Source of the DNA: Methanosarcina sp. MTP4
GTDB taxonomy: Archaea; Halobacteriota; Methanosarcinia; Methanosarcinales; Methanosarcinaceae
Reading direction: 5' to 3'
DNA: 64,000 nucleotides
Assembly (NCBI RefSeq): GCF_000970045.1
Contig: NZ_CP009505.1
Coordinates: forward strand, 3,248,808 to 3,312,807
Shown here: in pieces, positions 3,170-29,943 of the stretch
How the letters are laid out: each line of letters begins with the position of its first letter
Numbering within the stretch: position 1 is the first letter of the stretch
Program-made: the position numbers and the translations under genes
The notes under the pieces: model-generated
What the model was told of the DNA's origin: nothing
The model's input: the letters and a program-made list of their open reading frames with translations, nothing else
Databases searched by the model: none

Positions 3170-3262
3170 ATAGCAAAAACGTTTGTATTTGCCGTAAATT
3201 TTGTTTTTGCCGCAAGTTTTGTCTTGCCTCTTTGCCACAAGTTTTGTTTTTGCCACAAACTT
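3170..3262. repeat. Degenerate short tandem repeat, GCCRCAAGTTTTGTTTTT
   Basis: Four imperfect copies of a TTTTTGCCRYAARTTTTG-like unit between convergent genes. The last copy runs up to the stop codon of the archaeosortase. Looks like expansion of a gene-end sequence and not a transposon. Confidence 0.6.
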
Positions 3263-4097: not shown

Positions 4098-4428
4098 TAC
4101 AAGCTCTCATTTCAAACTCTCATTTTTGCACTTATTTATTCTATTTTGTATTAAGCCTTTTAAATATTTCTTATCGATTGCCAGGAAATTAGACCAGGGA
4201 AACCGAAATAACCCTCAAACAAAAAAACAACGGAAAAAATACCCACTTGCAAAATATTCTACAGAAGAAAATCACAAACTAAATAAACAAATTCAATCTA
4301 AGGGGATTATATAAAGCTGAAAATTTGCAAAACAGAGACTATTAATGTTTATTTACTCCGGAATATTCCCAACCCGGAAAGGAAAATAAACTGTGACTCT
4401 CCTGCAAAAATGAATGATTTGGGGGCAG
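4098..4428. other. Divergent promoter region
   Basis: AT-rich gap between the archaeosortase and the deacetylase operon, long enough for promoters in both directions. No repeat or RNA gene was recognised. Confidence 0.4.
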
Positions 4429-5253
4429 ATGGTGAGGGATTTCACCTTAAAAAAATATGAATTCCTGCTGCAGACAATCAGAAACACGGATTACTCCACC
4501 TGCACGGTACGGGATTTCCTGAAATTAGAACCCGAAAAGTGTATAATACTCAGGCACGACGTGGACCGGGCAGTCAGGCGGAACCTGGAAATGGCAAAGC
4601 TTGAGCACAGCTACGGAATAAAGTCAACCTACTATTTCCGGCATGTGGAAGAAACATTCAAACCCGAGATCATCCGCCAGATGGCAGACATGGGGCACGA
4701 GATCGGCTTCCACTACGAAGTAATGGACAAGGCAAACGGGAACCCCAAAAAAGCAATCGAGATATTCAAAGAAGAACTCGAAGACCTCAGGAAAGTAACC
4801 GAAAACATCACCGAAATAAACACGGTATGCATGCACGGAAACCCCCTCAAGCCCTGGTCAAACCGGGATCTGTGGCAGAAATACGATTTCAGGGATTTCG
4901 GAATTCTGGGAGAGCCTTACCTTTCAATCGATTATAACAAAGTCCTCTACCTCACAGACACCGGACGGACCTGGGCAGATTTGAATATCAGAGTAAAAGA
5001 TACGATTGACGGGGCCGGAGTTAATGCAGCATGCACCGACCTTAAGATCATTTCCTCTACTGATGACGTCATCCGGCTGATCCAAAGTGAAAAAATTTCC
5101 CGGATATGCCTGCTTGCACATCCCAACAGATGGTGTGATGATTTTGGGGGTTGGGCCAGGGAACTGGCATTCCAGAACATAAAAAATGTCGGGAAAGCGG
5201 GAATTGTGTGGTACAGGAACAGGGTTCAAAAAAGCAGGAATTACGGGGTTTAA
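4429..5253 (+). CDS. Polysaccharide deacetylase-like (NodB-fold) protein
   Basis: About 274 residues. RHDVDR near residue 40 supplies the Asp-Asp metal/catalytic signature of the carbohydrate esterase 4 fold, and GHEIGFHYE near residue 92 the metal-binding His region. A further HP motif (LLAHPNRW) near the end would complete the site. Likely role: removing acetyl groups from a sugar in a surface glycan or its precursor. GGGGG (4421-4425) lies 3 bases before ATG 4429 and 6 before GTG 4432, so the exact start is uncertain between them. The upstream ATG 4414 precedes the ribosome site and is unlikely. The next gene begins 2 bases after the stop, indicating an operon. Confidence 0.75.
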   Translation: MVRDFTLKKYEFLLQTIRNTDYSTCTVRDFLKLEPEKCIILRHDVDRAVRRNLEMAKLEHSYGIKSTYYFRHVEETFKPEIIRQMADMGHEIGFHYEVMDKANGNPKKAIEIFKEELEDLRKVTENITEINTVCMHGNPLKPWSNRDLWQKYDFRDFGILGEPYLSIDYNKVLYLTDTGRTWADLNIRVKDTIDGAGVNAACTDLKIISSTDDVIRLIQSEKISRICLLAHPNRWCDDFGGWARELAFQNIKNVGKAGIVWYRNRVQKSRNYGV

Positions 5254-5255
5254 CG

Positions 5256-6278
5256 ATGATTGAAATTAAAGATTCAATCGACCGGGAAAAATGGGATGAT
5301 TTTGTATTCAAGCATCCAAAGGGGAATATTTTTCAAACAAGTTATATGGCAGATGTTTACAGCTCAACTAAGAACTATGAGCCAATTTCCCTGGCTGCAG
5401 TTGAATCAGAGAATGATGAAATAGTGGCAGTTCTCCTGGCAGTAATCATCAGGGATGCCTCGGGAATGATCGGAGCTATTTCTTCAAGATCAATAATTAA
5501 TGGCGGCCCTATTTTTATCGAAGATAAAAAAGGATTCGAAGCAGTTACAAAACTGCTCAATTACTATGAGCAGGTTCTTCAAAACAGAGCGATCTACACC
5601 CAGATACGCAATATATGGGACATGGAAAACTCCAGAAGTACTCTGGAACCCCTCGGATACCAGTACGAACCGCACTTAAATTACCTTATTGACCTCGACC
5701 GTCCCAGCGAAGAGATGTGGAAAGACATCCACAAACCCCGCCGAAAAGGGATCAACAGGGCTGAAAAAATAGGCATCAAGCTTCGAAAAATTGAAAATAA
5801 AAATGAAATAAAAGACTGTTACAGGCTAATTGAGGAGACCTACAAAAATGTAAGGCTGCCTCTTGCAGATATTTCTCTTCTTGAAAGTGCATACGAAAAA
5901 TTCTTTGATATAGGATTTATTGATTTCTACCTGGCCACTTTAGATGGAGAAGTTGTCGGGTCCAGAGTGGTTTTGAAGTACAAAGGCCTGGTCCACGACT
6001 GGTATGCAGGTTCAAAACAGGAAATAAATTATGTTAATGAGGCGGCTGTGTGGCACATGCTGTGTGAGTATGCCGAAAAAGAAAAAGTGTTTGATTTCGG
6101 GGGAGCAGGCCATCCGGGCAAGCCCTACGGCGTAAGGGAGTTTAAAAAGAGGTTTGGCGGGAAGGAAGTCAACCATGGGAGATATAAGAAAGTCCATAAT
6201 AAAAGTAGAGAAGAAATTATGAAATCGGGATTGAAAATTTACAAAACTGTTGGGAAATACATGAACATAAAAGCATAA
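5256..6278 (+). CDS. FemAB/GNAT-type acyltransferase
   Basis: A 340-residue protein with the FemAB-like double GNAT layout. KPRRKGINRAEKIGI near residue 165 and the C-terminal FDFGGAGHPGKPYGVREFKKRFGG are typical of the FemAB group found in capsule and exopolysaccharide loci. FemX-type enzymes transfer aminoacyl or acyl groups to cell-wall or lipid-linked sugars. The ATG at 5256 is chosen because it follows the deacetylase stop by 2 bases; the frame extends upstream only inside that gene. Substrate unknown. Position beside a deacetylase and a DegT aminotransferase suggests modification of an amino sugar. Confidence 0.75.
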   Translation: MIEIKDSIDREKWDDFVFKHPKGNIFQTSYMADVYSSTKNYEPISLAAVESENDEIVAVLLAVIIRDASGMIGAISSRSIINGGPIFIEDKKGFEAVTKLLNYYEQVLQNRAIYTQIRNIWDMENSRSTLEPLGYQYEPHLNYLIDLDRPSEEMWKDIHKPRRKGINRAEKIGIKLRKIENKNEIKDCYRLIEETYKNVRLPLADISLLESAYEKFFDIGFIDFYLATLDGEVVGSRVVLKYKGLVHDWYAGSKQEINYVNEAAVWHMLCEYAEKEKVFDFGGAGHPGKPYGVREFKKRFGGKEVNHGRYKKVHNKSREEIMKSGLKIYKTVGKYMNIKA

Positions 6279-6316
6279 TTATTCAAAACCAATAATTCAA
6301 TTCGAGAGCTAAGGGG

Positions 6317-7513
6317 ATGAATTTCATTAAACCAAATCCGATGTTGATTCCGCGGTTCAATATAGACTATGGTACGAAAGATTTCGTGCATTCTCTAATG
6401 AATCTCAATTCTGAAGCGGATATTACAAAAATAAAAGAACTATTTCACAATTCATCCATAGGATTTACCAATAGCGGAAGAACATCCCTTTATGTAATAC
6501 TGAAGGCTTTAGATCTCCCCCAGAATTCAAACATTGGCGTTCCACTTTATTGCTGCCCGAGTGTCTTTGACGCTATAATCCAGGCTGGTCACAAGCCACT
6601 ATTTCTTGATATAGATCCTGACAATTATACAATAAGTCCTGAGCACCTTGAAGAGAAAATTGAAGAAATCGAAGCCGTTATTGCAATACATACTTTCGGA
6701 AGGCCTCCAGACCTGGACAAAATCCAAAAAATTGCAGGCGAGAAGCCGGTTCTTGAAGACTGTGCACATGCCCTTTTAAGTAAATATAAAGGAAAACTGA
6801 CAGGAACGATCGCAACTGCAGGCTTCTTCAGTTTCCGAACTGGTAAGTACATCTCAGCCGGAGAAGGAGGGATGGTAACCACCAGAAATCTGGAGCTTGC
6901 AGAGAACATAAAAAAAGAGATACAGAAACTACCAGAACCTTCCGGCACCGACAAAATCAAACACATAATAAAAACCTGTGCACGTTCCACATTATATCAC
7001 AGACCGTGGTTCGGATTGGTATCGCTGCCAATAGGGAGCAGGATTGAAAATAAAGTTGACCTGATGAACAAGTACTCATTCAAAACTGCAAAAATCCGAA
7101 ATACTGACCTTCAGGTTGCTGCTAAAAAGATACAGAGTTTCCAGGAAAAAGTCGAAAAGCAGAGAAAAAATTCTCAATATTTGATCGAAAATCTGAGAGA
7201 CACTTGTCTAAAATTACCCTTCGAAACTAAAGATACTTACTGCAACTATTACCTTTTCCCGGTACAAGTAGAAAGCCAATTAAAGAGAGATGAAGTTAGT
7301 GAGTTACTCAGAAAAAAAGGAATAGATACAGCCAAACTCTTCAGTAAAACACCTGAGATAGCGAAAAAGAATTATGGGTATAAAGAAGGCTGCCCAAATA
7401 CCGAAAAAGTTGCAGAAAGCATACTTGTTATACCTAATCATTTTACTCTTAAAAAAAGAGAGCTTGACCATATAATAAATGCAATAAAAATGACAGGGTG
7501 GGCTAAGGTTTGA
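6317..7513 (+). CDS. DegT/DnrJ/EryC1/StrS-family PLP aminotransferase
   Basis: 398 residues. The Schiff-base lysine is in SFRTGKYISAGEGG (about residue 177), with the preceding EDCAHAL motif that contacts the cofactor, both typical of sugar aminotransferases of the DegT family. Such enzymes convert keto-sugar nucleotides to amino sugars, in line with a surface glycan pathway. The family usually has ~370-400 residues, so the gene is full length. Its stop overlaps the TTG start of the next gene, so the two are co-translated. AAGGGG (6311-6316) directly precedes the ATG. Confidence 0.85.
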   Translation: MNFIKPNPMLIPRFNIDYGTKDFVHSLMNLNSEADITKIKELFHNSSIGFTNSGRTSLYVILKALDLPQNSNIGVPLYCCPSVFDAIIQAGHKPLFLDIDPDNYTISPEHLEEKIEEIEAVIAIHTFGRPPDLDKIQKIAGEKPVLEDCAHALLSKYKGKLTGTIATAGFFSFRTGKYISAGEGGMVTTRNLELAENIKKEIQKLPEPSGTDKIKHIIKTCARSTLYHRPWFGLVSLPIGSRIENKVDLMNKYSFKTAKIRNTDLQVAAKKIQSFQEKVEKQRKNSQYLIENLRDTCLKLPFETKDTYCNYYLFPVQVESQLKRDEVSELLRKKGIDTAKLFSKTPEIAKKNYGYKEGCPNTEKVAESILVIPNHFTLKKRELDHIINAIKMTGWAKV

Positions 7514-8541
7514 GGGTTTTATTTGATGTAGGACATCCCACGGATGTCAATGTATTCAGGAATGTCATAAAAAAGTTAGAAAAAGAAGGACATTCAACAA
7601 AGGTAACGGCAAGAGATAAAGAAAATACTGTTGAGTTACTTAAGACATATGGTTTAGACTACGAAGTCAGCCCACATTATAAAGGTATGATGAACAAAGC
7701 CTTAGGGCTTCCAAGAGCTGATTATTTCGTATATAAAGTAGCAAAAAAATTCTCGCCGGATGTTTTTGTTAGTGCAGGAACACCTTATGCTGCGCAGGTT
7801 AGCAAAATGTTAGGAAAACCCCATATTGCTTTTCCGAACACCGAGCATGCTAAACTTGCTATATATTTAAGTAAACCCTTCACCGACCTGATATGTACAC
7901 CTACTTTTTTTAAAAGGGATTTTGGTAAGAAGCAGAAACGCTTCAACAGTTTTAATGAGCTAACTTATTTGCACCCCAATCATTTCACTCCTGACGAGAG
8001 TATTGTAGAAGAACTGGGACTTCAGAAAGACCGTTACGTTCTCATCAGATTCTCAGCTCTGGATTCACATCACGACCTATCAGCAAAAGGGTTCGATTTC
8101 AAAAACGAGGGCGAGGTGCTAGAATTCATAGAAAGAATTGAAGATTTTCAGAGAGTAGTTATTACATCAGAACTAAAAATGGGAAGTAAATTCGAGAAGT
8201 ACAAACTGAATGTACCCTCTGACAAATGGCACGATTTTCTCTACTATGCAACAATGTACATTGGAGAGGGAGCAAAAACCGCCTCTGAAGGTGCAATACT
8301 GGGAGTTCCTTCAATATATGTTTCGAACACAAGGAGAGGATATCTCGATGAGCTTGAAGAAAGATACGATATGGCATATACAATTCCTAACAAAGATGAA
8401 GCACTCACTAAAGCGATATCCTTGCTTAAAGAAGAGAATTTAAAAAAGCTGTGGCATTCAAAGAGAGAAAAAATGCTTGATGAGAAAATTGACATTGTGG
8501 AATTTATAATGAGTGTTATCAGAGAACATGGAAAAAAATAA
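7510..8541 (+). CDS. DUF354 family protein, glycosyltransferase-like
   Basis: 343 residues, beginning with RVLFDVGHPTDVNVFRNVI, the N-terminal signature of DUF354 proteins, which have a GT-B-like fold related to UDP-GlcNAc 2-epimerases and MurG-type transferases. Contains GEGAKTASEGAILGVPSIYV near residue 255, which resembles the nucleotide-sugar binding region of GT-B enzymes. Likely a glycan synthesis enzyme, with activity unproven for the family. Start is TTG at 7510, overlapping the previous stop by four bases, the arrangement expected for translational coupling. Last gene of the 4429-8541 operon. Confidence 0.7.
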   Translation: MRVLFDVGHPTDVNVFRNVIKKLEKEGHSTKVTARDKENTVELLKTYGLDYEVSPHYKGMMNKALGLPRADYFVYKVAKKFSPDVFVSAGTPYAAQVSKMLGKPHIAFPNTEHAKLAIYLSKPFTDLICTPTFFKRDFGKKQKRFNSFNELTYLHPNHFTPDESIVEELGLQKDRYVLIRFSALDSHHDLSAKGFDFKNEGEVLEFIERIEDFQRVVITSELKMGSKFEKYKLNVPSDKWHDFLYYATMYIGEGAKTASEGAILGVPSIYVSNTRRGYLDELEERYDMAYTIPNKDEALTKAISLLKEENLKKLWHSKREKMLDEKIDIVEFIMSVIREHGKK

Positions 8542-8559
8542 AATTTTTCATAAGGTAAT

Positions 8560-8845
8560 TTGTGTGAAATCAAATTGTGGGCAACCACCCCGCCTAAAGT
8601 ACGGGGTATGCTTCGAGCCGCCTGCCCGGTTTCTTGGGAAGTTTTTAGTATGGTTTAACAAAGTTTCCTTAATATTAGAGTAACAATTCGAACTCCTGTA
8701 ATCATGATACCAAGAAACCTCAAATTAAAAAGGAGTAAGGGATTATCTATCTAAAGGAGCACAAAAAAAAGTGCGAGGGTTCACTTCATCCCCGACCTGA
8801 AGAGCGGGGTATTCGTGGCCCTCCGTGCTCCCGATGTAATAAAAA
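8560..8845. mobile_element. IS200/IS605-type palindromic remnant without transposase
   Basis: Gene-free stretch (the gap runs 8542-8984) with hairpins like those at IS200/IS605 ends. Left: AATCAAATTG then CAACCACCCCG...CGGGGTATGCTTC (about 8568-8614). Right: TTCACTTCATCCCC...GCGGGGTATTCG (about 8780-8816), enclosed by an imperfect GCGAGGG/CCCTCCGTGC outer stem. GGTTTCTTGG (8628-8637) and CCAAGAAACC (8710-8719) form a further inverted repeat. No tnpA or tnpB frame is present. The left motif recurs at 21255-21310. Read as a non-autonomous or decayed element. Confidence 0.5.
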
Positions 8846-8984
8846 GGTATGATTTATAATTTGTACTAATTAAAAGATGATATATATCTACGAGAAGTTA
8901 TTATTTCAAAAAGTTATATCAATTGTTAGCTTCAGACAAAACTGTGGAAACTCAAACATAATGTAACATAGTGGAATTGGGAGT

Positions 8985-9869
8985 ATGAAAGATTACATAA
9001 TTGTAACACCATGCAAAAACGAAGAAGATAATATACTACAGCTTGGAGAATCTATTATAAACCAGACAATTCAGCCTAAGCTGTGGGTAGTTGTAGATGA
9101 CGGGAGCACGGATTCTACTCCTAGACTTCTAGAAACTCTGACCTCAAGGTATGATTGGATTCGTGTAAATGTTCTTGGAAATGGAAAAAGAGATCTGAGT
9201 TTCCATTATGCTGAAGTTGTAAATGATGGTTTGAATCTTGCATTGGGTATTTCTGAAGAAAATGGTATTTCCTGTAAGTATATCGGCTTAATAGATGCGG
9301 ATATGATATTATATACTGATTTTTTTGAAAAAATAATGGGTAAGTTTGAAAGTAATTCCAAGCTCGGCGTTGCAAGTGGATCCGTCGTGTATCAGAAAGG
9401 AGAAAAAAAAGTCTTCGAAAAAGGAAGAGATAATCTTCCGATTGGTGGGCTAAGAGTTTGGAGGAAAGAATGTTTTTTGGACACAGGAGGTTTCCCTATT
9501 TCTTATTCTGCAGATTCGGTTTCAAATGTTATTGCAACCCTGCGTGGGTGGGATACAGTAAAATATAGAGATATCATTGGGATTCAAACAAGAGAAACAA
9601 GTAGTGCAGAAGGCATGTGGAAGGGATTTAAAACGAAAGGGAAATCAGACTACTACAGAGATTATCACCCAGCATATATTATCTTCAAGTTTTTAAAATA
9701 TACATTTAGATCTCCACACTATCTTGGGGTTCCATATCTATGTGGATACATAGATGGAATTTTCAAAATTAAAAATAAGATAGAAATCCCAGAAGTGAGG
9801 AAGTACTATAGAAACAAACACAAAGAGCTAATTGATTACTATGGAAGAAAGTTCCAGTTTAACCAGTAA
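8985..9869 (+). CDS. Glycosyltransferase family 2
   Basis: 294 residues. N-terminal IIVTPCKNEEDNI and VVVDDGSTDSTPRLL are the nucleotide-sugar binding signature of GT-A family 2 enzymes, and GLIDADMILYTDFFEK near residue 105 gives the metal-binding DxD. The C-terminal part lacks clear membrane helices. Expected to transfer a sugar from a nucleotide donor on the cytoplasmic face. First gene of a run of five glycan genes (8985-14862), with an overlap into the next gene. Confidence 0.85.
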   Translation: MKDYIIVTPCKNEEDNILQLGESIINQTIQPKLWVVVDDGSTDSTPRLLETLTSRYDWIRVNVLGNGKRDLSFHYAEVVNDGLNLALGISEENGISCKYIGLIDADMILYTDFFEKIMGKFESNSKLGVASGSVVYQKGEKKVFEKGRDNLPIGGLRVWRKECFLDTGGFPISYSADSVSNVIATLRGWDTVKYRDIIGIQTRETSSAEGMWKGFKTKGKSDYYRDYHPAYIIFKFLKYTFRSPHYLGVPYLCGYIDGIFKIKNKIEIPEVRKYYRNKHKELIDYYGRKFQFNQ

Positions 9870-11436
9870 TTTAAATTATAATGTATCCCTAAAAATGAAA
9901 TTATTATTGATTAGTTTACTTCTTTTACTAAATATAGTTATCAGAATTCCGAGCGTGCCTCATGAGCAAGGATACGATTCTTTTTTCATCCATGGACTTG
10001 CGAACTCAATTACAAATTTTGGAGAAGCTCAATGGTGGGGCAGCTGGTTGTCTATTTTTGGACTATATCCTTATTCATACGCAAGTTCTGTGCCTTTTTC
10101 TCTTTCTGGAATATCTCAGCTTACGGGAATTCCAATGGAATTTACAATACTTATATTTTGTATTTTTTTAGGTATTTTCACCATTTTTGCATCGTATTTA
10201 TTTGCAGGTGTGTTTCATAAAAGTTTTATTTCCAGATATATATTTTCATATTTATTTTCGCTTTCAGCGTCAACTATGACTCTCACTACGTGGCAAATAA
10301 CAACACGTGCCCAATTTTTAGTATTCTTCCCATTTTTTATGTATCAATTATATAAAGCACTGAAAGGAGAAAAAAAATTCAGTTTGTTGCTAATTATAAC
10401 TTTTTTATTTGTGTTTGCCACTCATCATTATGCTTATTTTTTAATATTTTTTTCAGCTTTAATTGTCATTACTTTCCTTTTCTACAAACTAGGCTCAAAA
10501 ATACAAATACCAGATATAAAATATTTAAATCTAAATAATCTATATTTTGCAATAGCTTTCTTTCTTATTATAACCCCTTTTTTGTTTTCGGGCCAAATTG
10601 GTTTGATTGAATATGGCTCAAGATACTCGTGGATTATCTCAATTGTGATCACCTCCATTCGTAATCTAGGTCCAGTTTTTCCACTATCAATAGGAGGTTT
10701 TGTGTACATCTCATTTAAAAAATTTAAAAGTTACCAAGAATGGTCAATACTTGCATGCATTCTGCCTACAATTGTGTTTTCTTACAATCAAACATATGGA
10801 TATCTGATTACTTATTTACTCTTTATAATCTTAGGTGCTGAGGGTATAATAAATTTAGTTAGAAGTTATAGAAAAGATCGGGAACTTGTACTGTATTTTA
10901 TAGTTTTGATTTTAATTGTAAATATCACTTTTTCAGGTTTCTTTGCCCATTGGAAACTTGGAACCCAAGGAGGTTACACTGACTGGTACATGACAGAAGA
11001 AAGCTACTTAACTGGACAGTGGATGAAAAACAATTTAAACCCCGATATAATCGGTATTTCTAATGGGTTTGAGACTGACAGAATGTACGCATCCTATGGT
11101 GGAATACCTCCATTATATAGTAGAAGTAGTATCTGGAACTACATAAACGGTTTCATTACCTTCAATAAATCGGACTTATGCAAAACCCCAATTTTTTCCA
11201 AAAATTATTATTTTGAAGGTGTTTATTTTTTGGAAGATAATACTGATTCTGCTGGCTTACTTAGTTGGCTTTCCGAGTTTCCAGTTACAGATATGAGAGT
11301 TGAAGGTTTCTTAAATAAACTTAATGTTTCATTTTTTATTGAAGATGGATATGTACCAAGCACTTTTACTAACTCGTTGTCCTATAATAAAAACAAAATA
11401 TATGATGGAGGAAGGATGAGGTTATGGTTAATCTAA
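9841..11436 (+). CDS. Polytopic membrane protein of glycan cluster, GT-C or polymerase-like
   Basis: 531 residues if started at ATG 9841 (29-base overlap with the GT2 gene); ATG 9895 is an alternative that removes 18 polar residues and starts directly at the first membrane segment. About ten to twelve hydrophobic segments fill residues 20-375, followed by a ~155-residue hydrophilic C-terminal domain. An early loop with HEQGYDSFFIHGLANSI is rich in acidic and aromatic residues, as in lipid-linked sugar transferases of the GT-C fold. It is not clearly STT3/AglB: no WWDYG motif was found. Likely a membrane glycosyltransferase or repeat-unit polymerase; this is inference from topology and context. 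Confidence 0.55.
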   Translation: MEESSSLTSNLNYNVSLKMKLLLISLLLLLNIVIRIPSVPHEQGYDSFFIHGLANSITNFGEAQWWGSWLSIFGLYPYSYASSVPFSLSGISQLTGIPMEFTILIFCIFLGIFTIFASYLFAGVFHKSFISRYIFSYLFSLSASTMTLTTWQITTRAQFLVFFPFFMYQLYKALKGEKKFSLLLIITFLFVFATHHYAYFLIFFSALIVITFLFYKLGSKIQIPDIKYLNLNNLYFAIAFFLIITPFLFSGQIGLIEYGSRYSWIISIVITSIRNLGPVFPLSIGGFVYISFKKFKSYQEWSILACILPTIVFSYNQTYGYLITYLLFIILGAEGIINLVRSYRKDRELVLYFIVLILIVNITFSGFFAHWKLGTQGGYTDWYMTEESYLTGQWMKNNLNPDIIGISNGFETDRMYASYGGIPPLYSRSSIWNYINGFITFNKSDLCKTPIFSKNYYFEGVYFLEDNTDSAGLLSWLSEFPVTDMRVEGFLNKLNVSFFIEDGYVPSTFTNSLSYNKNKIYDGGRMRLWLI

Positions 11437-12563
11437 AACTGACTTCAAACAAAGATTTGATTTATTACTATCCAATGGGAAGTGGTGCTCCATCTGACAT
11501 AAGCAGAAAAATTTTTAAATATTTACTAGTCCATAGGGAAGATCTGCCTTTTGAGAACATAAAGATATTTTGCAAAAAAAAAAATGTTACAAAAATAAAA
11601 GAGGAATTAAAAGATGTAAATATAATTACTTATTCTGATCTTGGAAAAATATCTCATAATAGTCTGATTCATATTCCAGTATTACCTTCAATACTTCCTA
11701 ATAGCAAGTTTTTACTTTACATCTATTGCACTCATATTAAAAAAACAAAAGTTGTTTTACAATATCATGGTGACGTAAGGGGAGAACTTAAAATAAGTTA
11801 TAAAGATGTTGTATCACTGGCTCACATTCTTACATACTTATTTGTACCCAATATCTTGAAAAGTGCCGACGCCGTATTAGTACATTCTAATTATATGAAT
11901 GACATTATTCACAATTATGGGGTGAATAAAAGTTTTGTGATATCAAATGCCATCGAAACAGATTGGTTAAAACCTTTGGAAAAAGAGATTTGCATTGAAC
12001 AATCAATTAATAAAAAGAGCTACAACATATTTTACCATGGGAGACTTTCCTGGGAAAAAGGAGTGGATCTATTAATAGACGCAGTATTTTTTTGTTTAAA
12101 GAATAATTATTCAAACATTATACTTTATCTTGCAGGTGATGGCCCAAGTAGGAGATATTTGGAGAAACTTTGCTGCCGATTAGGCATAGAGAATAATGTA
12201 GTGTTTCTAGGAAACTTAGATAAAAAAACTATAAAGTGGTTCCTCAAAGATGTTGATGTGGCAATATATCCCTCTCGTTTTGATGCTTTTTCTCTGGCGA
12301 TATTAGAAGCTTTATCCTGTTCTAATTGCAATGTTTATTTTTCGAAAAAAGCAGGAATATACAATTTTGTCATAAAAGATGGTTTTAAATTACATGCTTT
12401 TGAACCTTCTGTAGAAAACATAATAAAAATAATCGAACAAAAAGAATTTGTTGATAAAAGTGAATTACAAAAAGAATTTGCTAAGAAGTATACCTTTGAT
12501 TCTGTGGTATTTGACTACATAAAATTGTACACTAATGTCATAGATGATATTAATAGTAACTAA
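11424..12563 (+). CDS. Glycosyltransferase family 4 (GT-B)
   Basis: 379 residues. The C-terminal half shows YHGRLSWEKGVDLLIDA (about residue 200) and the donor-binding region YPSRFDAFSLAILEALSC (about 285), the EX7E-type signature of GT4 retaining transferases. Overlaps the upstream membrane protein by 13 bases, so it is co-translated with it. The acidic pair is less canonical than usual (F-D-A-F-S-L-A-I-L-E). Expected role: addition of a sugar to a lipid-linked glycan at the membrane. Confidence 0.8.
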   Translation: MVNLKLTSNKDLIYYYPMGSGAPSDISRKIFKYLLVHREDLPFENIKIFCKKKNVTKIKEELKDVNIITYSDLGKISHNSLIHIPVLPSILPNSKFLLYIYCTHIKKTKVVLQYHGDVRGELKISYKDVVSLAHILTYLFVPNILKSADAVLVHSNYMNDIIHNYGVNKSFVISNAIETDWLKPLEKEICIEQSINKKSYNIFYHGRLSWEKGVDLLIDAVFFCLKNNYSNIILYLAGDGPSRRYLEKLCCRLGIENNVVFLGNLDKKTIKWFLKDVDVAIYPSRFDAFSLAILEALSCSNCNVYFSKKAGIYNFVIKDGFKLHAFEPSVENIIKIIEQKEFVDKSELQKEFAKKYTFDSVVFDYIKLYTNVIDDINSN

Positions 12564-12585
12564 ATCTGTGTTGTGAGTTCTTATT

Positions 12586-13695
12586 ATGAGAATTGCACTT
12601 GTACACCCTGCCCATATGGATTATAGACAAGAGATTTTTGATAAACTAGATGATAGATACGATGTTACTTTCATATTTACAAAACATGGGAGAGGACAGG
12701 ATAATGTAAAAGAAAAACAAGCAAGCATTCCTTTGAAATGGAAGAGCAAAATATTAAGAACAAGACTCACTTTTGGTAATAGAGATATTGGGATGTATTT
12801 ATTGTTGATGAAGGAGTTACTATTTGGAAAATACGACCTTATTTTGACATCAACCAGTTGGCATGTATGTTGGCTAATGTCTAAGCTATGTAGAAACAAA
12901 TTCATACTTATTACGGAATTTTGGTATTGGAAAAACACATCATTTACTAGGAAAGTTTTGAATGAATTTACGAAATATATTGCGAGATCTTCTGACTCTA
13001 TTTTTGCAATGGGAACAAAAACCTATCAATCTTATCTTGAATTTGGAGTGAGTGAAGATAAAATATTCGCACATACTCAATGCTCCGTTGACTATAGTAA
13101 ACAAACCTCTTTTGATGCTAGGAAAAAGTTAGGATTAGAAGATAAAAAAATAATATTATATCTAGGTAGAATTGTACAAAGTAAAGGGCTAGATTACTTA
13201 ATCAAAGCATTTTCTCAATTAGAAAGTAATTATGACAATATTTTTCTAATAGTAATCGGAGAAGGTCCTCATAGGAATGAATGTGAAAAGGTCATTGATC
13301 AATTAAAAGTTAAAAACGTTATGTTTTTAGGCTCAAGTTATGGAAATGAAAAAGCCTCATATTACAAAGCATGTGATATCTTTGTTTTACCTTCTATTTT
13401 TTACAATTATTCGTACGAACCCTGGGGTTTAGTCATAAATGAAGCTATGGCTTTTGGTAAACCCGTTATAGCTACAAATGCTGTTGGAGCAAGTGAAGAC
13501 CTAATTCAAAATGGGCATAATGGATACGTAGCTCAAGAAAAAAATATCATGGAATTGTATGAAGCTATGAAAAAGATACTATCGGACAGTGAAGTGCTAA
13601 AATTGATGGGTGAAAACTCACGAATCATTTTCGAGGAAAAAAACGACTATGAGAAAATGTTTAAGGCCCTCGAAAACGCGATAAACAATTCTTAA
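12586..13695 (+). CDS. Glycosyltransferase family 4 (GT-B)
   Basis: 369 residues. MRIALVHPAHMDYRQEIFDKL opens the acceptor domain. The donor domain has YLGRIVQSKGLDYLIKAF (about residue 188), IGEGPHRNECE and PWGLVINEAMAFGKPVIAT (about 283), the full GT4 signature. Follows the previous gene by 22 bases and precedes another GT4 by 24 bases, consistent with a single operon assembling one oligosaccharide. Confidence 0.85.
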   Translation: MRIALVHPAHMDYRQEIFDKLDDRYDVTFIFTKHGRGQDNVKEKQASIPLKWKSKILRTRLTFGNRDIGMYLLLMKELLFGKYDLILTSTSWHVCWLMSKLCRNKFILITEFWYWKNTSFTRKVLNEFTKYIARSSDSIFAMGTKTYQSYLEFGVSEDKIFAHTQCSVDYSKQTSFDARKKLGLEDKKIILYLGRIVQSKGLDYLIKAFSQLESNYDNIFLIVIGEGPHRNECEKVIDQLKVKNVMFLGSSYGNEKASYYKACDIFVLPSIFYNYSYEPWGLVINEAMAFGKPVIATNAVGASEDLIQNGHNGYVAQEKNIMELYEAMKKILSDSEVLKLMGENSRIIFEEKNDYEKMFKALENAINNS

Positions 13696-13719
13696 ATAAA
13701 ATCAGAGAGTGAAATTGAT

Positions 13720-14862
13720 ATGAAAACCACTATAAAGATCATAGGAATAACTTCAGGAGGATTAAAAGGCTTTTCAGGCGTCAATGGAAAACTTTTCAAT
13801 ACAATCGCAAAAGATTGTGAATTAATAGAAGTCTTTGACACTAAACTTTATGGATTTGGAAAGTACTATGATGCAATATATTCCTTTTTAAGAACACCTG
13901 GATACAAAAAATACATCCACCCTTACAATGAAATTCTAGAAGGTAGTGTAGCTTATTACAGATTCAGAAATAATTATTATGTGAGCGAGAGAACAAAAAT
14001 TGCAAATAAAATGCTAAAAGAAAATAAAAAGAATTACAATTTAATTCTTCAGACGGGATGGTTACCTGCAATATTACAAAAAAATGATGTACCTCGTTGC
14101 ATTTACACAGACTATACCACGAAGCTATCTGAGAAAGAATTGCCCCAATGGAGTAAATTTTTGAGTGAAAATGATAGAAAATATTGGACTGACATGGAGA
14201 CAAAATCCTATGAAAATGCGGATATTGTTTTTACATTTAGTAATCATACCAGACAATCAATGATAAATGACTATGAGATTAGCGAAGACAAAGTTGTTAC
14301 AGTATATTCTGGTACAAACGTAGATTATTTACCTTGCATAAAAAAAGAGTACAATAAAAAAATCATATTATTTGTTGGGATTGATTTTGAGAGAAAAGGA
14401 GGATATGTCCTATTAGATGCATTCAAAAAAGTAAAAAATGAAATAAAAGATGCAAGATTAATTATATTGGGATCTAATCCAAAGTTGAATATTGAAGGTG
14501 TTGAAGTTAAAGGTTTTGTGTCCTATGAAGAAAAGATCCAATATTACAACTTGGCGTCGATTTTTGTAATGCCTTCCTTTGGAGATCCGTTTCCTAATGC
14601 TTTTATCGAAGCTATGAGTTATAGGCTACCATGTATCGGCAGTAGAGTGGGAGGTATTCCAGAAATAATAGAAGATGCTGAAACTGGATTTTTGGTAGAA
14701 CCTTATAAATCCAGTCAGCTTGCAGAAAGGATCATATACTTATTAAACAATGAAAATTTAATGAAAAAAATGGGGGATGCTGGGAGAAAAAGAGTTGAAG
14801 AAAGATTTACTTGGGACAAAGTTGTTAAAAAAATGGGGTCTAAATTTGACAAATTGATGTAA
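13720..14862 (+). CDS. Glycosyltransferase family 4 (GT-B)
   Basis: 380 residues. Donor domain signature: FVGIDFERKGGYVLLDAF (about residue 220), PSFGDPFPNAFIEAMSYRLP (about 287) and GGIPEIIEDAETGFLVEP. The N-terminal half has TSGGLKGFSGVNGKLF. Last gene of the cluster; the following DNA is intergenic and then mobile elements, so the original cluster may have been cut here by insertions. Confidence 0.85.
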   Translation: MKTTIKIIGITSGGLKGFSGVNGKLFNTIAKDCELIEVFDTKLYGFGKYYDAIYSFLRTPGYKKYIHPYNEILEGSVAYYRFRNNYYVSERTKIANKMLKENKKNYNLILQTGWLPAILQKNDVPRCIYTDYTTKLSEKELPQWSKFLSENDRKYWTDMETKSYENADIVFTFSNHTRQSMINDYEISEDKVVTVYSGTNVDYLPCIKKEYNKKIILFVGIDFERKGGYVLLDAFKKVKNEIKDARLIILGSNPKLNIEGVEVKGFVSYEEKIQYYNLASIFVMPSFGDPFPNAFIEAMSYRLPCIGSRVGGIPEIIEDAETGFLVEPYKSSQLAERIIYLLNNENLMKKMGDAGRKRVEERFTWDKVVKKMGSKFDKLM

Positions 14863-22739: not shown

Positions 22740-25700
22740 GTGTGTAAAATAAAATACAAATTCATTTCTTCTGCTTTACTGATAGGATTGATTATAAACA
22801 CAGTAAGCATAAGTTCCGCAGCAATTTATTACGATAGCGGGTACAAACAGCTTTACATCGAGAATGAGCCTTCAATAAGTCTTACAGACATCCATAACAC
22901 GCTACTTGTAAAATACGGAAATTCATTGATCTCAAATAAAGAAAGTAGCCTATGGCATATAAATACCAGTCTTAGAATAATCAACTCCACATTGTATATT
23001 ACAGCTCCAGAAGTCACAGATATTAGGTGGTCTGCTCCTGGGAACTCATGGCTGATGATGAGCACAACTGGCTCAATTGTAATAGACGGGGTGAATGTAA
23101 TTGGGTGGAGTGGAGATGGTCCTGTTACATCCGACCCATCAAAACAGAGTTTTGTGGTGTACAACTGTACAATAAAAAACTCCAAATTTGAAAATATTTC
23201 AAGTCTGGATATATCGGGTCTTAGAAATGCTGAAATCTTTAATTTGGAAGTCACTAATTGCAGTAATACTTTCTACATAAGGAATAGTGAGAATATAACT
23301 GTTAGTGACATCTATATGCATGATACATTTGGATCTCTTGTAACGGAATGTATAGAAAATTCATCTTTTTCCAATTTGAGATTTGAGAATGTTCCTGGAG
23401 ATCAAGCTTTTGGTATGACAAATCATTCAACCTTCAACAATATAACCGCAATTAACATTGGGGAGGGCATTTGGTGGTCAGACTCTTATTACATAAGTGG
23501 TGCAGATTTTTATATTTATAACACAACTTGGAGTAGCTTTGCACCCCAACAAAGTTCATACTGTAACTTCTCAAATATTACAATTTATAGATCAGGTCAC
23601 AACAGTATTGATATGCACAATACAAAACATGCAATTATAAGTAATGTAAGTCTGTATGATCCAGATAGCAATAACGTTATGATCACTGGCGGAACTGTGG
23701 ATGCCCCTATAGCCGAAAACATTACCATGAAAAACGTATATACCCTAAATGGTGGAATAGTCTCTGATGTCGGTTCATACGACATACACATTGAGAATGT
23801 GCTTCAGGAAGGAATCAAAGATGGATTTGGTATAAATTCAGAAAACTATACATTAATCAACGCAACAAGCACATCTAATGATGGGAATGCTGCGTTGGGG
23901 TTGTATTCTTTGCCACCTTATTACGCAAAGAATAATTTCATAATTGATACTAATGTCTACCATTTGGATGCAGATGGTGAGTGGGATACAAAACTAATTA
24001 ACTTTATGTATAAAAGTATTTACCACTCCAAGTTCACGAAATATTATTATATAGACATGATAGTAGTAGACAGTGATAGAAGTCCTGTAGATAGTGCAAC
24101 AATAACATTCAATAACGAAGTAGATGATTCAGGATTCCCCAGCGTAGATGGGTATGGAACAAATAAAACTACTTTTAACACTGATATTTCAGGCAGAACC
24201 CCTTTACCGGATGAAGACCGTGAAAATTCTCCTGCACTTATAGCTACTCAAGGACTGAATAACGGAAGTTATAACTTATTCACTCATACTGCTACCGTAG
24301 AACTTCCAACAGGGTCCAAAATTCACCTAAACGGAATTGCTACTAGTGCGTCTGCTCATGATTCCTCATGGTACCGCCCCGACCCCAACATCCCAACCTA
24401 TACCATCACCGCAATAATCCCTGATGACTCTCCCGGCCCACACATAACTGGCTTCGCACCCAGTGAAGAAAACCCCTTCAACCCGGGTGATGAAAAGATC
24501 TTCAGGGTCTGGACAGATGAAAATCTGACCAGTATGGAATGGTATGTTGATGGATCACTTGTATCAGAAGGATCCCTAAGTTACACATGGAAGGTCACAG
24601 AAGGTGGACATGCAATTGAATTCATTGGCTCCAATGAAAACGGCACTGTCAGCCAGAGCTGGAACATCGGAGAATATACCGGTGCCCTGCCTGCACCAAT
24701 CATAGAATTCCTTCCGACAGATACTATACTTACCCGGAACACTGGAGAAAATGTCATTTTCAGTGTTAGCTCGGATCAACCTCTGACAGCGAACTGGTCT
24801 ATCAACGGGGAGCTGATCCAGAACAATACAACGTCCATAACCCAGAGCTGGGATATACCTGGCACATACAACGTTACTGTGAACGGGTACAGCGGCGAAG
24901 AACCAATCGTACATACCTGGACAGTGGATGTAATCGATTCGTTAAAATCCCAAGATGAATCAACCGTCACGGTAACTCCGGACGATCAAATCGTCACTCC
25001 AAACCAGCCATTTACCATCGATGTAAGGATCGATCCTTCAACACCCATAGTCGCAGCCCAGTTTGACCTGCAATTCGACAGTTTAATGGTAAGAGCGAAT
25101 AGTGTAAGCGAAGGAAACCTGCTCAAACAGGATGGAGCTGGAACCTTATTCAACAGCACCATAAACAACAGCGAAGGAACGGTCACAGATGTCTATGGCG
25201 TGATAGTTGGAAAAACAAATGTCTCTTCAGAAGGGGTATTTGCAACCATCAGCATGACTGCAGGAAACAAAACAGGCATATCAGAACTCGACCTTTCCAA
25301 TGTGAGGGTTCTTGACACCAGTATAACAGACTTGCCAGTTAGTATTAGAAATGCAAGTGTGCTGGTAGATACCGCACCTGTCCTTAATCCGATCGATGAT
25401 AAATCGGTTTCCGAGTCGAACACCCTGAGCTTCACGGTGGATGCCAGCGATGCTGACGGCGACAGCCTGACTTATTCAGCCGCAGGCCTTCCGGAAGGAG
25501 CGAACTTTGATCCTGCAACCGGGGAGTTTAGCTGGACACCGGCAACTGGACAGGCGGGAACTTATACAGTCACCTTTGAGGTAAGTGATGGATACCTCAC
25601 GAACCCGGAAGATGCCACAATAACCGTGAAATCGCCAAATCGTGCTCCTGTTATTGATTCATTTGAACCGGAAGACGGATCAAGTTTCAATGAGAGTGAA

Positions 25701-26090
25701 GAAATCGACATTTCAGTTAGCGCATTTGATCTGGACGGGCAGTTCCTGAATTACATCATCAAGATCAATGGGATAAAATGCAGCACTGATCCGAGTTATA
25801 TCTGGAAGACCAACTACTCGAGCAGTGGGGAGCATACGGTGGAAGTAACGGTAAGCGATGGAATCGACCAGGTAACAGAACAGCACACAATCTACATCAA
25901 TGACTACTATCCTCCGTGGGATGTGGTTATGAATGGAGAGGTAGATATTGTGGACCTTGCCACAGTCGGCCAGAATTTTGAAACCCCTGTAAGCAAACCT
26001 TATCCAAGGTATGACGTAAACCAGGATGGAAGAGTAAATATCCATGACCTTACCCTCGTAGGATACCACTTTGGAGAAAAATACAAATAG
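22740..26090 (+). CDS. Secreted beta-helix protein with cohesin and dockerin domains
   Basis: 1116 residues. Signal peptide (about 1-28), a right-handed beta-helix rich in N-glycosylation sequons (about 90-430), a domain with DSDRSPVDSATITFNNEVDD (about 440-560), PKD/Ig-like units (about 565-735), a cohesin domain starting at VTVTPDDQIVTPNQPFTIDV (about 742-878), a He_PIG/cadherin-like unit with DADGDSLTYSAAGLPEGANF (about 880-967), another Ig-like unit, and a C-terminal type I dockerin (about 1056-1116) with calcium-loop repeats MNGEVDIVDL and DVNQDGRVNIHDL. No membrane anchor. Start GTG at 22740 with GGAGGGGG (22725-22732) seven bases upstream. Stop is TAG. Probably an extracellular carbohydrate-binding or -cleaving protein held by cohesin-dockerin contacts. 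Confidence 0.85.
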   Translation: MCKIKYKFISSALLIGLIINTVSISSAAIYYDSGYKQLYIENEPSISLTDIHNTLLVKYGNSLISNKESSLWHINTSLRIINSTLYITAPEVTDIRWSAPGNSWLMMSTTGSIVIDGVNVIGWSGDGPVTSDPSKQSFVVYNCTIKNSKFENISSLDISGLRNAEIFNLEVTNCSNTFYIRNSENITVSDIYMHDTFGSLVTECIENSSFSNLRFENVPGDQAFGMTNHSTFNNITAINIGEGIWWSDSYYISGADFYIYNTTWSSFAPQQSSYCNFSNITIYRSGHNSIDMHNTKHAIISNVSLYDPDSNNVMITGGTVDAPIAENITMKNVYTLNGGIVSDVGSYDIHIENVLQEGIKDGFGINSENYTLINATSTSNDGNAALGLYSLPPYYAKNNFIIDTNVYHLDADGEWDTKLINFMYKSIYHSKFTKYYYIDMIVVDSDRSPVDSATITFNNEVDDSGFPSVDGYGTNKTTFNTDISGRTPLPDEDRENSPALIATQGLNNGSYNLFTHTATVELPTGSKIHLNGIATSASAHDSSWYRPDPNIPTYTITAIIPDDSPGPHITGFAPSEENPFNPGDEKIFRVWTDENLTSMEWYVDGSLVSEGSLSYTWKVTEGGHAIEFIGSNENGTVSQSWNIGEYTGALPAPIIEFLPTDTILTRNTGENVIFSVSSDQPLTANWSINGELIQNNTTSITQSWDIPGTYNVTVNGYSGEEPIVHTWTVDVIDSLKSQDESTVTVTPDDQIVTPNQPFTIDVRIDPSTPIVAAQFDLQFDSLMVRANSVSEGNLLKQDGAGTLFNSTINNSEGTVTDVYGVIVGKTNVSSEGVFATISMTAGNKTGISELDLSNVRVLDTSITDLPVSIRNASVLVDTAPVLNPIDDKSVSESNTLSFTVDASDADGDSLTYSAAGLPEGANFDPATGEFSWTPATGQAGTYTVTFEVSDGYLTNPEDATITVKSPNRAPVIDSFEPEDGSSFNESEEIDISVSAFDLDGQFLNYIIKINGIKCSTDPSYIWKTNYSSSGEHTVEVTVSDGIDQVTEQHTIYINDYYPPWDVVMNGEVDIVDLATVGQNFETPVSKPYPRYDVNQDGRVNIHDLTLVGYHFGEKYK

Positions 26091-26101
26091 ATTGAAAAGA
26101 C

Positions 26102-26143
26102 CTGACGCAGGTTAAGGGGGACCTGCGTCAGAACTACTTTTTT
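26102..26143 (+). terminator. Strong hairpin terminator after the dockerin gene
   Basis: Perfect 11-bp stem CTGACGCAGGT (26102-26112) / ACCTGCGTCAG (26121-26131) with loop TAAGGGGG, followed by a T-rich run ending near 26143. It begins 12 bases after the TAG stop. This is the intrinsic-terminator layout. Confidence 0.8.
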
Positions 26144-26689
26144 AAAATGCATATAACTTATTGAGATATTGTTACTCTTTTTGAAATTCGTCCTATTTTG
26201 AAACATATTACTTTTTAGACATTCTTCTTCTTTTTGACATATTATTACATTTTTAACACATTGATATTTTATTTATAATTATATGCCAGGACTGTATAAA
26301 AAAAGTTACTTATACTTTGCAAGGCTAATAAAAGGGAGGGAATGGTAATAGCAAAGGGGTTACCGGATTAATTTGAGCAATACTAGCTCTATCCATGAAT
26401 AAATTCGGTTCATGAGAAATTCTGTCCAAAAGTACTGGAAGTTTTCGCAAAAAGGCTTCAAAATACATCCTGCCGCCCTGGAAATTTCAAATAATAAATA
26501 TCTCTGATTGGCAGATCCGGATATTTTCATGAATGCAGACTTATTCAACCCTTTCTTTCAGCATAAAAATGCCAGCTTCAGACAAAATAAATTTATAATA
26601 AAATGTGTAAAATAAAGATCAATGTATATTAAGAGATATATAACAGATGTAAAACGAATTGGCTTGAATAGCGAGTGGGGGTAACTCGA
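26144..26689. other. Gap between the two cohesin genes
   Basis: No gene recognised. An isolated ribosome-site-like AAGGGAGGG is at 26331-26339 but no good frame follows. AATGTGTAAAATAAAG near 26601 resembles the first bases of the upstream gene. The stretch is long enough to give the downstream gene its own promoter. Confidence 0.4.
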
Positions 26690-27970
26690 ATGCACAGGAA
26701 GAGCCTGCAGAACAATACATTACGCCTGAGTCTGATTTTACTATTATTTGCCTCTTTGAGCACCATATTCACGGGTACTGCTCTGGCAGAGACAATCGTA
26801 AGCATATCACCGGAAACGCAATCCGTTGGAGAGGACCAGGATTTCATCCTGAGTATATATATCGAACCTGACGCACCTATATCCGGAGCTCAGTTTAACC
26901 TCATTTTCGATGAATCCCTGGTCAATGTCAGGGAAATCCGGGAAGGAGACCTGTTTAAGCAGAAAGGAACCACTATGTTTAGCCAGGGTACCATTGACAA
27001 CTCACAGGGCACTGTTAAAGGCATTTACGGCCTCGTCCTGCGCAAAAATATGGTGACGACACCCGGGACCTTTGCAACAGTCTATCTCAGTTCGACAGAC
27101 AGTTCAGGGATATGCAAATTACAGCTTTCAAATGTAGAGGTAAGCAACTCAAGCGGTTGCTCAATGCCGGTAACAGCCATACCCGGTACTGTAAGGGTAG
27201 GAGATGTTTCGATATCCCCTGCTGAAACAATATCAAGCGCAGGGAGTTACGGAGGCGGAGGAGGTGGGGGAGGAGCAGGTTCTCCCGAGCCCTCAGAGAA
27301 TGTCAAGCTAAAAGAGCTTTCCCAGTGCTTCATAACCAACGGGGTCCGGGCCAGATATATGTTTAGAGGGGACATCAATGACATAAGGTATGTGGAATTT
27401 GACCCCAAAAAAAGCTTTGGGAAGACCACCGCAATCATCGAGATGCTCAAAGAAAAATCCGCACTGACCTCTGGGGAACCGGAAGGCCAGGTATACCAGC
27501 ACATGAACATCTGGATAGGGACGGACGGGATTTCAAACCCCGAAAATATTGAAAATGGAGCTGTGGGCTTTAGAGTTGAAAGAGCCTGGATAGATGAAAA
27601 TGAAATTGACCTTACCTCCATCACCCTGAACCATTTCAGCAATGGAAAGTGGGACGTGCTTGAGACCTGCCAGACCGGCGAAGATAAACTCTACCTGTAT
27701 TTTGAAGCCAGAACACCGGGTTTTTCCCCGTTTGCGATAACCGGGCAAAGCTCAGGGATCTTAAAGAGCACTGAAAGTACAACCCAGGGTTCAAATGATA
27801 TGCAGGGTTCAAACGATGCCCTGAGGTCAGAAGCTACTTCAAAAGCAACTCAAAGTCCTGAAGGGGAAAAAGAGGCAGAGGCAGGTAAAAAAGACTATAC
27901 CGCAATAATCTATGTTGCAGTAGGAATAATCCTTTTCTTGCCCGTACTCCTGATATTCAAAAGAAGCTGA
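26690..27970 (+). CDS. Membrane-anchored cohesin and PGF-pre-PGF domain surface protein
   Basis: 426 residues. Signal peptide (about 1-35, ending ALAET), a cohesin domain (about 38-165) that aligns by eye with the cohesin of the upstream protein (QFNLIFDESLVNVREIREGD versus QFDLQFDSLMVRANSVSEGN), a Gly-rich linker (about 184-194), a PGF-pre-PGF type domain (about 205-360) with GFRVERAWIDENEIDLTSIT and ARTPGFSPFAITG, a Ser/Thr/Glu-rich stalk and a C-terminal membrane helix (about 403-422) ending FKRS. It lacks a PGF-type sorting tail. GGGGGT at 26677-26682 decides the ATG at 26690 over an upstream in-frame GTG at 26675. Likely displays cohesin on the cell surface. Confidence 0.85.
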   Translation: MHRKSLQNNTLRLSLILLLFASLSTIFTGTALAETIVSISPETQSVGEDQDFILSIYIEPDAPISGAQFNLIFDESLVNVREIREGDLFKQKGTTMFSQGTIDNSQGTVKGIYGLVLRKNMVTTPGTFATVYLSSTDSSGICKLQLSNVEVSNSSGCSMPVTAIPGTVRVGDVSISPAETISSAGSYGGGGGGGGAGSPEPSENVKLKELSQCFITNGVRARYMFRGDINDIRYVEFDPKKSFGKTTAIIEMLKEKSALTSGEPEGQVYQHMNIWIGTDGISNPENIENGAVGFRVERAWIDENEIDLTSITLNHFSNGKWDVLETCQTGEDKLYLYFEARTPGFSPFAITGQSSGILKSTESTTQGSNDMQGSNDALRSEATSKATQSPEGEKEAEAGKKDYTAIIYVAVGIILFLPVLLIFKRS

Positions 27971-28056: not shown

Positions 28057-29046
28057 TTACAACCTTCCAGGAATGAAAATGCCTATAGCGCAAAAAACCG
28101 AAGTTAGCAAGAACATTGCATAAGTTGCCTGTTTTTCAGTTACATTATAGTAGTAAGGCAGGACCCATTTCAATGTAAGAGGGTTGGGGACTTCCAGAAT
28201 ACCATCACCCCGGTCCTTTCCAAACTTGGCGGGAGGGAATTTTTTAACTTTCCAGTACACATACATCAGGAAGTTTACCGTGTGTGGAATAAGCATTATG
28301 AACCCGCTTATCAAAAATCCCTGTATGACTATGATAGCGCCTATGGCAGCCCCTATTACCAGGGAACCCACATTTCCCCAGAATATTTTTGATGGGTAAT
28401 GGTCATAGATATAATAACCGATCAGAGCCCCGGTTAAAGCGACTACTGTTACTATATTTTCGACATCGTTTAGTAGTAGGGATTTAATGATCAGGGAACA
28501 CAATAAAATTACGGATAAGCCGGATGCAAGGCCGTTATATCCGGAGTGCATGTTCACGAGGTTTGACGCAACAAGCACGTATGTGGGAACTATAAACTGA
28601 AGTGAGAGGACCCCGAGAGAAATAGCCCAATCCCCGGAATATAAAACCAGAGGATGAGGTACGTACTGGATAAGCGGATAGGTGCAGTAATACATAATTA
28701 TGAGTTTGGACAGGCGCCCTATGTTTATCATATCATCCAGGATCCCGAAAAGCCCGAAAAGTACGATAATCACCAGGATAACATAGTTTTGGGTTGTGAA
28801 CTTAAAAAAGAGAGAATTTAAGGATATCGAAAGTAACGCTATGAGTAAGATTATGAGCCCGCCTGAGGTCGGCACCATTGTAGGCTTTTTCTTGTAGTAG
28901 TCTTTAACTACGAAATTATTTTCCTTCAGCCTATTAATGAAATAAGGCATAGTCACTGCTGTAACTAAGAAGGGAAACAAAAAATTACTAAAGAGTTCAA
29001 TTACTCCGATCCTATAATTAAGAAGGAAATCAATTAAAATGACCAC
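28057..29046 (-). CDS. GlcNAc-1-phosphate transferase family (AglH/Alg7-like)
   Basis: 329 residues with about ten membrane segments. Family motifs: KKPTMVPTSGGLIILL (about 55), LFGILDDMINIGRLSK with the Asp-Asp metal site (about 100), ASNLVNMHSGYNGLASG (about 163) and FWGNVGSLVIGA (about 224), then a cytoplasmic KKFPPAKFGKDRGDG loop. Enzymes of this family transfer a sugar-1-phosphate from UDP to a polyprenyl phosphate (dolichyl phosphate in archaea), starting N-glycan or polysaccharide assembly. The motif pattern is closer to eukaryal/archaeal Alg7 than to MraY. Sugar specificity unknown. Confidence 0.8.
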   Translation of the reverse strand: MVILIDFLLNYRIGVIELFSNFLFPFLVTAVTMPYFINRLKENNFVVKDYYKKKPTMVPTSGGLIILLIALLSISLNSLFFKFTTQNYVILVIIVLFGLFGILDDMINIGRLSKLIIMYYCTYPLIQYVPHPLVLYSGDWAISLGVLSLQFIVPTYVLVASNLVNMHSGYNGLASGLSVILLCSLIIKSLLLNDVENIVTVVALTGALIGYYIYDHYPSKIFWGNVGSLVIGAAIGAIIVIQGFLISGFIMLIPHTVNFLMYVYWKVKKFPPAKFGKDRGDGILEVPNPLTLKWVLPYYYNVTEKQATYAMFLLTSVFCAIGIFIPGRL

Positions 29047-29439: not shown

Positions 29440-29943
29440 ATGTCAAAAATAAAAAAAACCAGTATTTTTACTTTAGTCGCAGTTTCATACGCAGTCCTGA
29501 TTTTCTACTTATCAGTCACTTCAGACCTGGGAGACCTGAAACACTTCCTGGTGATGACCCTGGGTTACAAAACAAGAGACGCCCTGGTCGAAAACAACCT
29601 TTCTTTTATCAAGGATTTTTTGCTTGAAACCTTAAGGTTTGTCATGGGTCTGTCCATAGACCCGGCCCATCTCGCCGTGTACTTCGTATTCGGGGTTTTA
29701 CTGTATCTTGCATTCTCGAATTCCAAAAACCCATCATTGGTAAAATACCCGGCAGTTTACGCCATAGGCACGGGCACAGTTTACGGCATTCTCAATGAGA
29801 TATTTCAGATGTATCTTCCCTTCCGTGTAGCAAGCATGGCAGATGTGATATCGAACTTTATCGGGCTTGCGATTGCTCAGGTTCTTGCAATAGTTTTTGT
29901 CCTGGGATTAAAAGGAATTTCCAAAGGTAGAGATACCAAATAA
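29440..29943 (+). CDS. VanZ-like membrane protein
   Basis: 167 residues with four membrane segments. IDPAHLAVYFVFGVLLYLAF and YGILNEIFQMYLPFRVASMADVISNFIG fit the VanZ/teicoplanin-resistance-like family (E..Q...P.R..S..D...N..G). The biochemical function of the family is unclear; members often lie in surface polysaccharide loci. Single gene with its own promoter. Confidence 0.75.
   Translation: MSKIKKTSIFTLVAVSYAVLIFYLSVTSDLGDLKHFLVMTLGYKTRDALVENNLSFIKDFLLETLRFVMGLSIDPAHLAVYFVFGVLLYLAFSNSKNPSLVKYPAVYAIGTGTVYGILNEIFQMYLPFRVASMADVISNFIGLAIAQVLAIVFVLGLKGISKGRDTK

Follow-up and report, generated by a model that had tools for sequence, protein, structure and literature searches.

Cohesin-dockerin pairs are not confined to the bacterial cellulosome. 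A non-cellulosomal pair has been described in A. fulgidus (2xdh; Voronov-Goldman 2011, as presented in PMC9705933 and PMC11452385), for which cohesin-dockerin binding is established (PMC9705933, PMC9012536) and whose dockerin pair has found use as a pair of high affinity (PMC9705933). In ANME archaea the dockerin-domain hits number as many as 149 (PMC5244752), one protein can contain as many as five cohesins, and dockerins also occur on transporter binding proteins (PMC9012536, PMC5244752). What the non-cellulosomal cohesins and dockerins of archaea do is a standing question (PMC9012536, PMC5244752). Here we describe a dockerin protein, P0001, and a membrane-anchored cohesin protein, P0002, encoded by neighbouring genes of Methanosarcina sp. 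MTP4 in a stretch of 64,000 nucleotides that was analysed as a whole (the window). The original prediction for this DNA took archaeal examples to be isolated; in fact they are common: of 112 genomes from the family Methanosarcinaceae, 62 have dockerins and 68 have cohesins, and ANME have many hits besides. It also passed over the polysaccharide-synthesis genes surrounding the pair and the apparently enzyme-like character of the beta-helix that P0001 carries.

P0001 is a protein of 1116 residues with a GTG start (22740..26090, plus strand; ORF list, Pfam, hydropathy and model), and the purine-rich sequence gggaggggga lies directly upstream of the GTG. It begins with a hydrophobic signal-like segment, which is followed by a pectin-lyase-like beta-helix, middle domains, a cohesin, two Ig domains and a dockerin in this order. 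The middle region (aa 431-738, 24030..24953, plus strand), composed of PKD/BiPBP_C-like beta domains according to Pfam, is kept throughout the family. Next come the cohesin, called the cis cohesin hereafter (aa 739-878, 24954..25373, plus strand; Pfam and fold match), two Ig-like domains that separate it from the dockerin (He_PIG, aa 879-963, and Big_7, aa 970-1053; 25374..25898, plus strand; Pfam and model), and the C-terminal dockerin itself (about aa 1059-1112, 25914..26075, plus strand; Pfam and homologue alignment). The original prediction had claimed a secreted protein with both a cohesin and a C-terminal dockerin, and both domains indeed score above the Pfam cut-offs: Cohesin (PF00963) at aa 745-849 (E 2.5e-10, 41.1 bits, cut-off 24.1) and Dockerin_1 (PF00404) at aa 1061-1107 (E 2.9e-7, 31.0 bits, cut-off 22.9). 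In comparison with the homologue at L071, dN/dS of the cohesin, Ig and dockerin parts is ~0.25-0.37, which indicates purifying selection; the beta-helix is saturated in this comparison.

The DNA preceding P0001 has several features of its own. A short head-to-tail repeat, cacagatgcacacagatg, is present at 22300-22400 of the window and sits within an apparent inverted-repeat element (ccacggataaacacagatg ... catctgtggtt). Farther upstream, between the polysaccharide genes and the P0001/P0002 pair, are three transposase genes, one each of the IS4/5, Mutator and IS66 families (15987-20082), and the 2.6 kb that follow them, up to 22740, contain no ORF of 110 aa.

The next gene encodes P0002 (431 aa, 26675..27970, plus strand; ORF list, Pfam, TIGR04213 and hydropathy), the start of which may instead be the ATG at 26690, 15 bases later, as in the orthologue at L073. 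Behind an N-terminal signal-like segment, P0002 has a cohesin, here the anchor cohesin (aa 39-177, 26789..27205, plus strand; Pfam and cohesin alignment), a PGF-pre-PGF domain (aa 205-357, 27287..27745, plus strand; TIGR04213, E 3.3e-58) and a C-terminal transmembrane helix followed by KRS (27890..27967, plus strand; hydropathy 2.96 at aa 406-431), which is the cohesin on a C-terminal membrane anchor that had been foreseen. The Pfam Cohesin match (aa 49-139, E 2.6e-5, 24.9 bits) is barely above the cut-off of 24.1. Judged by its sequence the domain is a cohesin, and the two cohesins align, as had been claimed, with 39% identity over 129 residues. In genome G083 the anchor gene is apparently broken, with the cohesin and PGF parts in separate short frames (L085:6833-7743).

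The modelled P0001 cohesin matches 4uyp (Z 17.5, 134 residues, 1.9 A) as well as A. fulgidus 2xdh (Z 17.0); as modelled, it has the cohesin beta-sandwich fold. In a tree based on few columns and with modest support, cohesins of the family group by role, namely cis, anchor and adaptor, requiring 7 changes versus 33 in shuffles. Since cis and anchor cohesins form separate classes, one dockerin need not fit both. The idea that one of the two cohesins is a recent duplicate of the other was considered and rejected, because the tree classes reach across genera.

Both loop-helix repeats of the P0001 dockerin, each of ~22 residues, align with about 40 homologues, among which the dockerin motif is strongly conserved. 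The first Ca loop is degenerate (DVVMNGEVDIVD, D-V-V-M-N-G-E-V-D-I-V-D), position 3 being without the usual ligand, and the second is canonical (DVNQDGRVNIHD, D-V-N-Q-D-G-R-V-N-I-H-D). A first model, of the C-terminal half of P0001, was confident for the cohesin and Ig domains and left the dockerin unmodelled (pLDDT about 30). The model of full-length P0001, the alignment for which had a few more dockerin rows including two unrelated dockerin-like proteins from viral contigs, has helices at 1070-1077 and 1101-1112, where they are expected after each Ca loop (pLDDT about 43-58). It weakly suggests a dockerin fold, modelled with low confidence. Owing to this low confidence, the models are silent on a contact between the dockerin and the cis cohesin. 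Such a contact could occur within one chain, the dockerin folding back onto its own cohesin, 180 residues away in cis, and closing the Ig linker; however, the dockerin persists in proteins that have no cohesin, and we regard a clamp of this kind as very improbable.

Five cohesin matches and three dockerin matches were found in the genome of Methanosarcina sp. MTP4, a single contig of 4.21 Mb. A search of the genome for further dockerin proteins, suggested in the original prediction, yielded two in addition to P0001: L010, a short Coh-Ig-Ig-Doc paralogue, and L011, a NosD-repeat protein. The five cohesins belong to five different proteins, the remaining ones being L009, a Coh-PKD protein, and L012, a small cohesin that has a hydrophobic segment at its C-terminus. 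At L011:2833-8565, NosD-repeat proteins with nearly identical N-termini (MDAAKDGDTIIVYSGTYEENVDVN...) are arranged in tandem, and the last of them has a cohesin-like domain and then the terminal dockerin. None of the three dockerin proteins has a match to a glycoside-hydrolase family (L010 and L011 by NCBIfam only), and with one cohesin match per protein there is no multi-cohesin scaffoldin in the genome. A cellulosome was rejected on these two features, the lack of a hydrolase family match in the three dockerin proteins and of such a scaffoldin; the former fits the earlier idea of a scaffold without cellulases. In the family, 25 genomes have a complete Coh-Ig-Ig-Doc end, and the N-terminal load of proteins of this class varies: beta-helices, CBM96, CBM9 or disaggregatase-related domains. 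The last are found on a dockerin protein of genus g6 (L076:3215-6250; Disaggr_repeat, E 3e-75), and they link the dockerin class directly to proteins of the matrix-dispersal type. In viral contigs, neither the Coh-Doc half nor the N-terminal half found relatives, and the dockerin found only the two unrelated dockerin-like proteins; a plasmid search gave only distant Ig/cohesin matches, and a search of genome contigs one relative, apparently the same genome as G006.

Which cohesin, then, would receive the dockerin of P0001? With the dockerin subtype defined as a match to profile A5 with E at most 1e-15, and the anchor type as a match to profile A4 spanning the cohesin and PGF domains, 36 of the 112 genomes have both, 6 the dockerin only, 7 the anchor only and 63 neither. 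The anchor is thus present in 36 of 42 genomes with the dockerin subtype versus 7 of the 70 others (Fisher 3e-16; within-genus permutation 1e-4), and the corresponding counts in genomes at least 90% complete are 36, 5, 5 and 40. Fifteen of the 43 anchors, in 15 genomes, are encoded at most 4 kb from a dockerin, where 0.24 would be expected. In several genera the gene order is long protein, Coh protein or Coh-Doc adaptor, and Coh-PGF anchor; in genus g6 and in G003 it is a small Coh-Doc adaptor that lies ahead of the anchor. Putative holding of the dockerin protein by the anchored cohesin, as originally suggested, fits both the phylogenetic co-occurrence and the gene adjacency. The cohesins might instead do no more than mediate adhesion or act as spacers, or their partners might be other dockerins, those of L010 and L011, so that P0001 and P0002 would not be binding partners. 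Three genomes (G047, G055 and G064) have an anchor and no detectable Pfam dockerin, which leaves room for other partners of the anchor cohesin; the anchor and dockerin genes of genus g10 are unlinked, and the bit score of the P0002 cohesin hardly exceeds its cut-off. Against these points, the dockerin subtype and the anchor co-occur strongly within genera, 15 cases are adjacent and the dockerin motif is strongly conserved, and we consider it unlikely that the two proteins are not partners.

The same genomes bear on the chains envisaged in the original prediction, in which the dockerin of one P0001 would bind the cohesin of the next to form head-to-tail assemblies capped by P0002. Chains are possible, with support from the domain layout only, cohesin and dockerin being joined in one polypeptide in the 25 genomes with the complete end and likewise in the short paralogue L010. 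However, in 8 of 10 loci examined in genus g6 (L075-L079, L081, L095 and L110) the long protein has kept its dockerin and has no cohesin, and all eight genomes retain the anchor, which makes it more likely that the conserved partner of the dockerin is provided in trans. As far as sequences can tell, this pattern favours putative trans binding to the anchor over chains; with cis and anchor cohesins falling into separate classes of the tree as well, self-assembly appears improbable.

The load that would be held in this way is the domain at aa 29-430 of P0001 (22824..24029, plus strand; AF2 model and family profile), a right-handed parallel beta-helix according to the match of the model to AlgG and to profile matches in the PDB. 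The part of the AF2 model at aa 25-379 resembles the alginate epimerase AlgG (4nk8; Z 27.6, 2.6 A over 317 residues), and there are further matches to phage tailspikes. The strands are spaced by ~22 residues; the confidence of the model is mixed past residue 240 and low in the region that bears the motif described below. A Foldseek search with the full P0001 model was dominated by Ig folds, the helix match coming from a second structure comparison. A phmmer search of the PDB with the P0001 helix alone gave nothing meaningful, and a ten-sequence profile of homologous helices found pectin-lyase-like proteins and polygalacturonase in the PDB (E 1.6e-5 to 7.6e-4).

Residues W264, H287, N288, D291, H293 and N311 (P0001 numbering) are invariant in 10 divergent beta-helices with 20-40% identity to P0001, four of them within the invariant motif GHNSIDMH (aa 286-293, 23595..23618, plus strand; ten-helix alignment). 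The invariant HN..D.H together with W264 and N311 looks like a putative active or ligand site. The catalytic motif of the alginate C5-epimerase AlgG is DPHD; in a comparison made without residue-level superposition, P0001 has D-M-H-N and the invariant HN..D.H. As modelled, the N-terminus of P0001 is a pectin-lyase/AlgG-type beta-helix, apparently enzyme-like.

Genes for surface polysaccharides flank the pair on both sides. Upstream of P0001, at 3261..14862, domain matches identify archaeosortase C, FemAB, DegT aminotransferase, DUF354, GT2 and three GT1 glycosyltransferases, and archaeosortase C (TIGR03762, E 5e-124; 3261-4097) lies at the edge of the cluster. Downstream of P0002 are a convergent polyprenyl-phosphate sugar transferase gene of the MraY/WecA type (28057..29046, minus strand; Glycos_transf_4, domain match and conserved neighbour), a VanZ-like gene (29440..29943, plus strand), conserved as a neighbour by gene comparison, and an acyltransferase gene. 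An orthologue of the sugar transferase lies near the dockerin gene at 20 of 40 listed loci, these cases falling in three genera; the list includes one genome twice (L071/L072) and leaves out the present window. Scored with thirteen polysaccharide-gene markers, some of them drawn from the tested loci, 24 of 32 long-dockerin loci were positive, as against none (0) of the 40 stretches used as controls (p 1e-12), loci within one genus not being independent. In a search of largely non-subscription literature, we found no paper tying archaeal cohesin-dockerin genes to polysaccharide loci.

We propose that P0001 and P0002 probably constitute a non-cellulosomal surface display, in which a beta-helix protein active on a polysaccharide is tethered within the matrix of the cell itself. 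P0001 would be secreted and its C-terminal dockerin would plug into the cohesin of P0002, which would sit in the membrane through its C-terminal helix, so that P0001 is held at the cell surface. We infer the choice of partner, the substrate and any catalysis as follows: the displayed pectin-lyase-fold beta-helix would bind or process a polysaccharide, the likeliest being the cell's own exopolysaccharide or surface glycan, the synthesis of which the neighbouring genes would encode. The Ig domains would serve as spacers, and the cis cohesin as a second socket for another dockerin protein, two more of which are encoded in the genome, or, less likely, for a further copy of P0001. A broader and more tentative reading, possible though we would not count on it, is that long dockerin protein, Coh-Doc adaptor and Coh-PGF anchor form the tiers of a cellulosome-like assembly on the surface of Methanosarcinaceae. 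It would display polysaccharide-processing beta-helix proteins within a matrix made by the adjacent genes, and would remodel the cell's own exopolysaccharide rather than digest plant fibre. Since the dockerin subtype, its likely anchor and the polysaccharide context recur together in a family that can be cultured and for which genetic tools exist (Methanosarcina), the question of role is directly testable; the proposed display also hints at a route by which methanogens could build or loosen aggregates.

How does this locus compare with known systems? In A. fulgidus binding has been measured, whereas the pairing of P0001 and P0002 rests on sequence and gene context; sequence identity is ~13%, and the partner proteins and genome context are different. 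Both are archaea without a cellulosome, sharing the cohesin fold and having dockerin and cohesins in a single small set. The disaggregatase of Methanosarcina and its relatives (PMC12369344) are likewise beta-helix proteins, and they come from the same family of organisms; related domains occur on the g6 dockerin protein L076, and a Pfam search found neither Disaggr_repeat nor Disaggr_assoc in P0001. With the bacterial cellulosome the locus and its relatives share a dockerin protein, a Coh + Doc adaptor (in genus g6) and an anchored cohesin, whereas here the cargo is a helix, the membrane anchor is of the PGF-pre-PGF type, and neither cellulases nor a multi-cohesin scaffoldin were found. The ANME systems (PMC9012536, PMC5244752) resemble it in belonging to methanogen-related organisms, in being extracellular and partly anchored, and in having proteins with both dockerin and cohesins; their sets are far larger, whereas here the proteins are few, have a single cohesin each and are linked to polysaccharide genes.
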